Source of the DNA: Natrinema versiforme JCM 10478
Lineage (GTDB): Archaea; Halobacteriota; Halobacteria; Halobacteriales; Natrialbaceae
DNA length: 64,000 nucleotides
Reading direction: 5' to 3'
Assembly (NCBI RefSeq): GCF_000337195.1
Contig: NZ_AOID01000022.1
Location: 59,952-123,951, forward strand
Part shown: one piece after another, positions 24,581 through 52,864 of the stretch
How positions within the stretch are numbered: position 1 is the first letter of the stretch
How the letters are laid out: the number at the start of each line of letters is the position of its first letter
Program-made: the position numbers and the translations under genes
The notes under the pieces: generated by a model
Seen by the model: only the letters and a program-made list of their open reading frames with translations
Database searches by the model: none
Told to the model about the DNA's origin: nothing

Positions 24581-24755
24581 AAACGAGGGTTGGGACGGGG
24601 ACGCTAAGAAGGGCCGGGTTTCCGCTCTGTTCTCTTCGCTCCGCCGCGTCGGTCCCCAGCAAGAGCGCGCCGAATTCACCGCTCTCGGCGACCAGTTCGA
24701 CGGTTTCGGACGCGACCGAAACGCTTTACGTCCACCCGTTTAACTCTCGAGATAT

Positions 24756-25280
24756 ATGCGGAAAAGCGGGCCGCCGAAGGGACTCATCGCCTATCTCGTC
24801 CTCGAACTTCTCGAGGAGAAGCCACGCTACGGCTACGAGATTCTCAAGGAAATTCGGGACATCAGCGGCGGTCACTGGGAACCCTCCTACGGCTCGGTCT
24901 ACCCGATCCTCTACAAGTTCGAGGAGAAGGGGTGGGCCGAACGCATCGAGCGTGCGGACGAACCGGACCGGAAGTACTTCGAACTCACCGCCGAAGGGCA
25001 GGCCGAACTCGAGGAGCGCCGCGAGAGCGGGTCGGAGAAGGCTCGGGACTTCGCCGACGTGATCCTGGGTTTCTTCCACGTCTACGCGGCGTTCTCGACG
25101 GACGACCGGTTCGAGATCCCGGAGCTGGACGGCGAGTGGCACTTCGACGAAGAGTTCAGCCGCTGGGTCGTCGAACAGGTCGTCCGCCACTACGAACACT
25201 ACTTCGATACCGAGTTCGACCGGATCGACGAGACGGCCGAGGAGTTCTACGAGCGCCACGGCGTCGACACGGACGACTGA
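24756..25280 (+). CDS. PadR-family transcriptional regulator
   Basis: A 174-residue regulator. PPKGLIAYLVLELLEEKPRY followed by GYEILKEI and HWEPSYGSVYPILYKFEEKG form the PadR winged helix with the conserved YPxLxxLE-like motif. FELTAEGQAELEERRE closes the wing. The C-terminal part is a helical dimerisation region rich in Tyr, Phe and acidic residues. It is divergent from pitA across 175 bp, so control of pitA is plausible. Confidence 0.87.
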   Translation: MRKSGPPKGLIAYLVLELLEEKPRYGYEILKEIRDISGGHWEPSYGSVYPILYKFEEKGWAERIERADEPDRKYFELTAEGQAELEERRESGSEKARDFADVILGFFHVYAAFSTDDRFEIPELDGEWHFDEEFSRWVVEQVVRHYEHYFDTEFDRIDETAEEFYERHGVDTDD

Positions 25281-50755: not shown

Positions 50756-51127
50756 ATGCCAGCGCTCCGCGACGCGTTGCGGGACCTCTCCGAGGACGTC
50801 TTCTTCGATCTGCTCGAGAGCGAGGACGCCTATCTGCTCGTACTCGACGTGCCCGGGGTCTCCGCCGAGTCGCTCGACCTCGCGATCGAAGACGGGGTAA
50901 TTTCCATCGACGCCCACCGCGACAAAGAGCCCACCGACGACTACCGCTACCTCGAGGAGAACCGCTCGCTCTTTCTCGAGGCCGACCTTCCGCTGCCCGA
51001 CGACGCCTCCGACGCCGGGGCCGAGGCGACGGTCAACCGCGGCGTCCTCGAGTTGACGCTCCCGAAACGCGGCGCGGGCGAGGAGACGACCATCGATATC
51101 GTCGACGAGGACGCCGAAACGGGGTGA
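50756..51127 (+). CDS. hsp20: Hsp20/alpha-crystallin family small heat-shock protein
   Basis: A 123-residue chaperone. After a short N-terminal helix (LRDALRDLSEDVFFDLLE) comes the alpha-crystallin domain (AYLLVLDVPGVSAESLDLAI, GVISIDAH, NRSLFLEADLPLP, GVLELTLPKRG). It holds unfolding proteins. The TGA stop at 51125-51127 is in the same frame as the UbiB gene that follows, with open reading beyond it. A structured repeat lies upstream. Confidence 0.88.
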   Translation: MPALRDALRDLSEDVFFDLLESEDAYLLVLDVPGVSAESLDLAIEDGVISIDAHRDKEPTDDYRYLEENRSLFLEADLPLPDDASDAGAEATVNRGVLELTLPKRGAGEETTIDIVDEDAETG

Positions 51128-51133
51128 CAGAGG

Positions 51134-52864
51134 CTGGCCTCCCTCCGCGCCTATAAGCGGTTCGTCGTCGTCGCGTGGCAGTTCCTGCCGCTGTTGCTCG
51201 CCTACGCCCGCGACCGGCGGCGCTTCCTGCTGTTCGGTCGGCCCCGGCAGGTCGACCCCGAGACCCACCGCCACCGAGCCGACGTGTTACTCGAGTCGCT
51301 GCTGACGCTGGGGCCGACGTTCATCAAACTCGGGCAGTTGCTGTCGACCCGGCCGGACGTGCTCCCGCCGGCGTACATCGACGTACTCGCGTCGTTACAA
51401 GACGACGTGCCGCCGGCTCCGTGGCCCGACGCGAAACGGGTGCTCGAGGACGAACTCGGCCCCGTCGACGAGCGCTTTGCGGCGTTCGACACCGAGCCGA
51501 TCAGCGGCGCAAGTCTGGGACAGGTCTATCGAGCCCGTCTCGATCCAGACGCGGTCGGGACGGACCGCGGCGACGGTGAGACGCCGGCGACCCGCGCCGA
51601 CGGCGAGAGGGGTCGCGAGGTCGCGGTGAAGGTCCGTCGGCCCGAAATCGAATCCCTCGTCCGGGCGGACCTGCGGGTCATCAAGTGGTCCTTACCGATC
51701 CTGCTGTACTTCGTCGACGACGCCAGGTCGTTCTCGCTCGAGAACCTTGCCACGGAGTTCTCGAAGACCATCCGCGAGGAGATGGACTACGAGCGCGAGG
51801 CCGAGATGCTCGCCGAGATCAGGGGCAACTTCGCGGACGACGACCGGTTCCTGATCCCCGACGCGGTCGAGAGCCACTCCGGGCCGCGCGTGCTCACGAT
51901 GGAGTACATCGAGGGGACGAAGATCAACGATCTCGAGGCACTCGAGCGCAAGGGGATCGACCGGACGAAGATCGCGGAGAACTTGGAGCGATCGTACCTG
52001 CAGATGATTATGGACGACGGGGTCTTCCACGCCGATCCGCACCCGGGCAACCTCGCGGTGACCGACGACGGGCGGATCGTCTTCTACGACTTCGGGATGT
52101 CCGGGCGGGTCGATCCGTTCGTCCAGGAGAAGATCGTCGACTTCTATATCGCCGTCGCTAATCAGGACATCGACGGCATTCTCGACGCGCTGGTCGAGAT
52201 CGGGACGCTCTCCCCGGAGGCCGACCGCGGCGTGATGGCTGAAGTGATGGAGATCGCCATTCAGGACGCCCGTGGCGAGGACGTCGAGCAGTACCGGGTC
52301 AACCAGATCGTCGGCCAGATCGAGGACTCGATCTACGAGTTCCCGCTCCGGCTCCCGAAGAACCTCGCGCTCGTGTTGCGGGTCGCGACCGTCGTCGAAG
52401 GCGTCTGTGTCACGTTAGACGAGGACTTCGACTTCATCTCGGTCGCGACCGACTACCTGACTGAGGAGGGGTATCGCGAGGAGTCCATCCGGCAGTATCT
52501 CGACGAAACGGGCCAACAACTCCGACGGACCGGCGAGTCGCTGACCCGGATCGCACCGAAGGCCGAACGGGCACTCGACCGGCTCGACCGCGACGACCTC
52601 CACGTCAGGATCGGCGTCGAGGACACGGAGGACGTCTTCGAAGACCTCGCCAAACGGTTGGTCTACGGCATGTTGCTCACGATGTCGCTGTTCTCGATGG
52701 GGGTCCTCTACGCGCTCGAGGCCCCCAGAGGGTCGGTCGTCGCGGCGGTTTTCTCCGTGCTCGTGACGATCCAACTCTACCGCTCGTTCCGCTCGCCGAG
52801 CTCGATCGGGGCGCGACCGCAGTTCACCCGACAGAACCTGCGCCAGCGCCGCGGCGAGGAGTAA
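51134..52864 (+). CDS. AarF/ABC1/UbiB family kinase-like protein (non-canonical start)
   Basis: A ~576-residue protein. UbiB motifs are present: KxGQ in FIKLGQLLSTRPDVLP, the Ala-rich-loop equivalent ISGASLGQVYRA, invariant Lys in VAVKVRRPEI, and DPHPGNLAVTD then VFYDFGMSG. Two C-terminal helices anchor it. Members act on isoprenoid lipid or quinone metabolism. Family-like sequence starts at LASLRAYKRFVVVAWQFLP, but the only candidate initiation codon there is CTG (51134). The first canonical one is TTG at 51194, which would remove that N-terminus. The frame is continuous with hsp20 except for its TGA stop. Confidence 0.85.
   Translation: MASLRAYKRFVVVAWQFLPLLLAYARDRRRFLLFGRPRQVDPETHRHRADVLLESLLTLGPTFIKLGQLLSTRPDVLPPAYIDVLASLQDDVPPAPWPDAKRVLEDELGPVDERFAAFDTEPISGASLGQVYRARLDPDAVGTDRGDGETPATRADGERGREVAVKVRRPEIESLVRADLRVIKWSLPILLYFVDDARSFSLENLATEFSKTIREEMDYEREAEMLAEIRGNFADDDRFLIPDAVESHSGPRVLTMEYIEGTKINDLEALERKGIDRTKIAENLERSYLQMIMDDGVFHADPHPGNLAVTDDGRIVFYDFGMSGRVDPFVQEKIVDFYIAVANQDIDGILDALVEIGTLSPEADRGVMAEVMEIAIQDARGEDVEQYRVNQIVGQIEDSIYEFPLRLPKNLALVLRVATVVEGVCVTLDEDFDFISVATDYLTEEGYREESIRQYLDETGQQLRRTGESLTRIAPKAERALDRLDRDDLHVRIGVEDTEDVFEDLAKRLVYGMLLTMSLFSMGVLYALEAPRGSVVAAVFSVLVTIQLYRSFRSPSSIGARPQFTRQNLRQRRGEE

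Follow-up and report, generated by a model that had tools for sequence, protein, structure and literature searches.

Where does translation of a ubiB-type gene begin when its reading frame offers no canonical start codon at its 5' end? The question is raised by one locus of the haloarchaeon Natrinema versiforme JCM 10478, in which an hsp20 gene is followed by ubiB with only a TGA between them in a shared frame. We examined this junction in the window (the whole stretch of 64,000 nucleotides that was analysed, numbered from its first letter) and in homologous loci of other haloarchaea.

The hsp20-ubiB junction

The features of the locus are listed in Table 1. The hsp20 product matches Pfam HSP20 (PF00011; E=3.6e-13, 49.9 bits against a gathering cutoff of 20.8), which places it in the Hsp20/alpha-crystallin family. 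The UbiB product matches Pfam ABC1 (PF03109; E=1.1e-69, 234.8 bits against a gathering cutoff of 22.9) over residues 88-351, and carries the KxGQ motif of ABC1/UbiB (AarF/COQ8) proteins N-terminal to the kinase core, as KLGQ at zero-based residue 64 of the CTG-started protein. A sequence-only reading of the window had noted that the hsp20 TGA lies in the ubiB frame and that no in-frame ATG, GTG or TTG occurs between it and TTG 51194, and the reading frames of the window confirm both points. The frame is open from CAG 51128 up to the TAA and begins CAG AGG CTG GCC TCC CTC CGC. Family-like sequence had been placed directly after the stop; such sequence is present, but the two codons CAG AGG intervene.

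Table 1. Features of the hsp20-ubiB locus in the window of N. versiforme JCM 10478
Feature	Position	Strand	Remarks
hsp20 / alpha-crystallin family gene	50756..51127	+	123 aa; ATG start, TGA stop 51125-51127
Shine-Dalgarno-type element GGGGTGA	51121..51127	+	complementary to 16S 3' end (...GAUCACCUCC); last three bases are the hsp20 TGA
6-nt spacer CAGAGG, non-coding	51128..51133	+	all three positions of both codons vary in 72 taxa
CTG, inferred ubiB start codon	51134..51136	+	CTG in 72/72; ATG/GTG in same column of other lineages
ubiB / ABC1 atypical kinase gene	51134..52864	+	576 aa counted from CTG; stop TAA 52862-52864
TTG, first canonical in-frame start; judged internal Leu codon	51194..51196	+	codon 20 (CTG = 0)

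The two genes (50756-52864 and the homologous loci) form a very widely conserved haloarchaeal pair, with hsp20 standing immediately ahead of ubiB in 160 of the 164 distinct loci. The closest relatives of the window by ubiB are Natrinema genomes. The same genome also holds a second, divergent UbiB paralogue (L002; G000 contig C35, about 24755-25024, minus strand), whose sequence passes from one reading frame (open for 143 aa) into another a little beyond the KxGQ region; this looks like a frameshift or a sequencing error.

Samples and counting

The 164 distinct haloarchaeal junctions were gathered both by protein similarity and by sequence pattern. Seventy-four of them have no ATG, GTG or TTG from the previous in-frame stop to the CTG, and without two in which a canonical start follows no more than three codons later they make up a CTG-only set of 72; positions of the hsp20 stop were tallied over 73 CTG-only genomes. 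As the CTG-only set is defined by having CTG, and the pattern-found sets were picked by NTG or CTG patterns, the unbiased check is a protein-selected set of 99 distinct loci, in whose choice the codon in the start column played no part. Changes were inferred by parsimony on a tree built from downstream sequence, and since the segment is short (240 nt) the counts are approximate; the genomes share ancestry, and counts over them are not independent trials. Plasmid records held only distant UbiB paralogues (<60% identity), and hence no annotated start for comparison.

A CTG conserved as a codon

The usual arrangement in Natrialbaceae is a block of GRGGTGA, six free bases and CTG, followed by (A/V/G)-S-L-R-A-Y-K-R-F, so that GGTGA-6 nt-CTG recurs across the family and the junction is more than chance. 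All 72 CTG-only junctions have CTG in the start column, with no inferred change at any of its three positions (0/0/0), while on the same 72-taxon tree third positions have changed 13 times in the conserved Leu codon that comes next (column 3) and 2-26 times in other conserved codons. The protein-selected loci agree: 81 of the 99 have CTG in this column and none has another Leu codon. The remainder consists of 17 loci with TCG, CCG, CGG or TAG in the column and GTG one codon on, and one locus with ATG in the column itself. Synonymous change would be expected if the CTG were an ordinary internal Leu codon, and the absence of other Leu codons is therefore informative: what is kept at the 5' end of the conserved frame is the codon, and not merely leucine.

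Canonical starts occupy the same column in orthologues of other lineages, with ATG in family f14 (L030, L116-L120) and GTG in the f12 loci as well as in one locus of the window's own family (L141). The column thus accepts canonical starts in place of CTG, which is how a start codon should behave. TTG also occurs there in genome G119 (L209), but a GTG three codons upstream in the same frame makes this case ambiguous. Two further pattern matches in the start-column search appear spurious: that in G257 lies in chance-like sequence, and the real ubiB of G105, the other genome concerned, has CTG (L220).

As far as comparison of sequences can tell, then, the start column is identified, invariant and interchangeable with canonical starts, and is preceded by a conserved SD core and a non-coding spacer. 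The start of ubiB is almost certainly the conserved CUG at 51134, in the species of the window and in dozens of relatives.

Shine-Dalgarno element and spacer

The Shine-Dalgarno (SD) element of the window is predicted to form a duplex of -10.7 kcal/mol with the 16S 3' end (GAUCACCUCC), a value matched by 1.1% of random 20-mers of the window; no more than five bases (GGTGA) match exactly, and outside them the pairs are G-U. Its GGTG core shows no inferred change in the 72 taxa and lies some 5-8 nt ahead of the start in the SD-bearing junction types. The final A of GGTGA has changed twice, giving GGTGG in five CTG-only genomes, in which the in-frame stop is lost and the CTG retained. The SD is also kept where hsp20 stops elsewhere, and is thus conserved independently of the TGA. 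By contrast with the core, the spacer codons between TGA and CTG have accumulated 7-21 inferred changes at each position.

A comparison of this junction in related genomes had been proposed as a check, in the expectation of a conserved in-frame arrangement. It is the order SD, spacer and CTG that proves to be conserved, whereas the hsp20 stop is in frame in only 38 of the 73 CTG-only genomes. The TGA falls in frame because the SD closes with UGA and the six-base spacer amounts to two codons; it is thus a by-product of SD tail and spacer. The role of the TGA as part of the SD element had been missed by the sequence-only reading.

A model for ubiB initiation

We consider it very probable that ubiB starts at CUG 51134-51136 by SD-assisted termination-reinitiation behind hsp20. 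A ribosome would terminate at or near the end of hsp20 and be held there by pairing of GGGGUGA (51121-51127) with the 3' end of 16S rRNA; it would then re-initiate six bases downstream at the CUG, presumably with initiator Met-tRNA, to give a 576-aa UbiB beginning (M/L)ASLRAYKRF. Re-initiation at this CTG was among the routes first put forward for the locus, and it is strongly supported by the invariance of the codon, the well-spaced SD and the ATG or GTG found in the same column elsewhere. The coupling itself, and methionine as the first residue, are what we infer from this layout. The gap between TGA and CTG is 6 nt in the window and 6-16 nt in nearly all CTG-only genomes, a very close spacing, and GRGGTGA at the end of hsp20 stands 6 nt before the CTG, at the spacing of an SD in such pairs.

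CTG is not generally used as a start in this genome. A census of strong SDs in 410 kb of it found 12 CTG sites whose frames stay open for 100 codons or more (some counted twice), against 16 for CTC and 14 for GAG; with this low power no excess of CTG, and no general class of CTG starts, was seen. A further SD-CTG site in the window (minus strand, near plus coordinate 19620) looks accidental; the frame it opens is of low complexity and lies within another coding frame.

Alternative explanations

The first canonical start in the frame is TTG 51194, initiation at which would give a 556-aa protein, the shortened UbiB of the earlier reading. This TTG at codon 20 is shared by 52 of the 72 CTG-only relatives, but the others mostly have CTG, CTC, CTA or CTT there, and in 12 of the 72 the first canonical start comes at codon 50 or later, in five of these beyond the KxGQ motif (codon 64). 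The 20 residues that precede it in the window show strong amino-acid conservation with free synonymous change, that is, constraint at the level of protein, and they are part of the homologues that start with ATG or GTG. Because the TTG is not conserved, 12 genomes lack any early canonical start and the upstream residues are constrained, a start at 51194 is very unlikely. A start at GTG 51124-51126, inside the SD, with a +1 shift into the UbiB frame within three codons, seems less probable again. In many other haloarchaea the third codon ahead of the CTG column is an in-frame GTG, which makes an ancestral GTG start and a 1-nt change conceivable; against this, the spacer varies freely without a slippery pattern, GGTGG replaces GGTGA in the five genomes mentioned above with the spacing unchanged, and 23 protein-selected genomes with an upstream in-frame GTG all keep the CTG. 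The related idea that a one-base insertion destroyed a GTG start at 51124 was rejected, as the same spacing recurs in dozens of genomes.

That some ribosomes might read UGA 51125 to make an Hsp20-UbiB fusion was likewise suggested at the outset, and the in-frame hsp20 stop of the window and of 38/73 CTG-only genomes is what speaks for it. We give it a slighter chance still. In 35/73 the hsp20 stop is out of frame, mostly as a TAA 16 nt before the CTG, with SD and CTG still kept; it coincides with the TGA of the SD in 33/73, and in most others it is a TAA 15 or 16 nt before the CTG. With hsp20 stopping upstream in another frame in about half of the CTG-only genomes, a read-through fusion is ruled out there. 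Neither a conserved in-frame hsp20 stop nor coding constraint across the junction was found; the two codons after the TGA are unconstrained and those between TGA and CTG evolve as non-coding sequence. In f14, moreover, hsp20 stop and ATG start are clean. As for read-through of stops in archaea, a review of recoding in this domain treats it in connection with selenocysteine and pyrrolysine (PMC8211752). The chance of a sequencing or assembly error, or of a broken gene in the window strain, is negligible: its sole support is the missing canonical start of the window gene, and the recurrence of the same junction in dozens of independently sequenced genomes already refutes the reading as error.

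Start variation and retention of the CTG

The window's family has mostly CTG, and the canonical replacements seen in it are limited to GTG in genus g21 (L140-L142), where L140 and L142, unlike L141, have another in-frame GTG as well, and the TTG of L209. At loci of Halorubrum/Halonotius/Halorussus type (e.g. L031, L034, L081, L105, L107, L110), a near-perfect SD (GGTGGTC or GGTGATC) encloses a GTG placed three codons ahead of the CTG column, so that a start call at this GTG may be wrong. An in-frame GTG at this distance upstream occurs in many other haloarchaea and may be the true start in them, yet the CTG is kept in all 23 protein-selected genomes that have an in-frame GTG upstream (23/23), so the CUG may be the start far beyond Natrialbaceae. 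Haloarcula, Natronomonas, Halovenus and others (L093, L095, L101, L103, L213, L214, L230 and similar) have xCG GTG AAC; here the start appears to have shifted one codon downstream, with an SD-type element in most, which would make these loci a natural start-shift series.

Why should a CTG be retained? Among prokaryotes, the start codons GUG and UUG go back to AUG at measurable rates, and a CUG very seldom arises: in one survey, covering 36 genome groups, 61,358 ancestral AUG starts showed only two switches to it (PMC5622118). Together with the retention of CTG in the family, these figures suggest, though they do not prove, that selection for weak initiation keeps the CTG. A broader proposal, to which we would give somewhat less than an even chance, is that the CUG is held by selection as an inefficient start that keeps UbiB well below Hsp20 from the same message, and that most haloarchaeal families may in truth start ubiB there, even those with an in-frame GTG within the SD. 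If true, few CUG starts in prokaryotes would be as widely conserved.

A conserved CUG start is a rarity among prokaryotes, and that of ubiB does not vary in 72 junctions. The gene therefore offers a natural test of near-cognate initiation on archaeal ribosomes, and a clean one of whether weak starts are maintained to set the protein ratios of operons. There is a practical side as well: gene finders limited to ATG, GTG and TTG would mis-start UbiB, with a loss of 20 conserved residues in the species of the window and of at least 50 in some relatives.

Comparison with known systems

A search of the literature for CUG starts in haloarchaea returned no report of ubiB, and none of the papers searched names ABC1, Hsp20 and haloarchaea together. 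It is the depth to which its CUG start is conserved that makes ubiB unusual, and the codon is possibly kept for its weakness. A bacterial parallel is infC, which has a conserved AUU start, neither AUG nor GUG/UUG, that is thought to keep initiation weak or regulated. Both are rare starts kept over long evolutionary time, but codon, domain of life and gene differ, and autoregulation by an initiation factor is not suggested for ubiB.

Likenesses are also found in Haloferax volcanii. There, proximal genes of operons carry SD motifs close to their stop codons, at 5+/-2 nt from the start that follows, and an extended SD can take in the UGA stop (PMC3986360). Those genes and hsp20-ubiB share a GGAGGTGA-like element 5+/-2 nt ahead of the downstream start; the start of ubiB is CUG, whereas the part of that source drawn on here describes no CUG starts. 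Close gene pairs in H. volcanii are translated by termination-reinitiation (PMC6728339, PMC10666635), and in overlapping pairs so coupled the SD usually contributes, to a variable extent (PMC6728339). As in hsp20-ubiB, the coupled genes lie on the same strand a few bases apart with an SD at the end of the upstream gene, a place in which haloarchaea use SDs amply (PMC6728339); however, they mostly overlap (ATGA, GTGA) and have canonical starts (PMC10666635), while the CUG of ubiB follows the stop by six bases. By analogy, the junction fits termination-reinitiation as it is known from H. volcanii, with CUG as the start. CTG-started small proteins have been found in H. volcanii by mass spectrometry (PMC12482152), so that the two cases share a CTG start in a haloarchaeon; theirs belong to sRNA-encoded small ORFs, whereas ubiB is a conserved operon gene of 576 aa.
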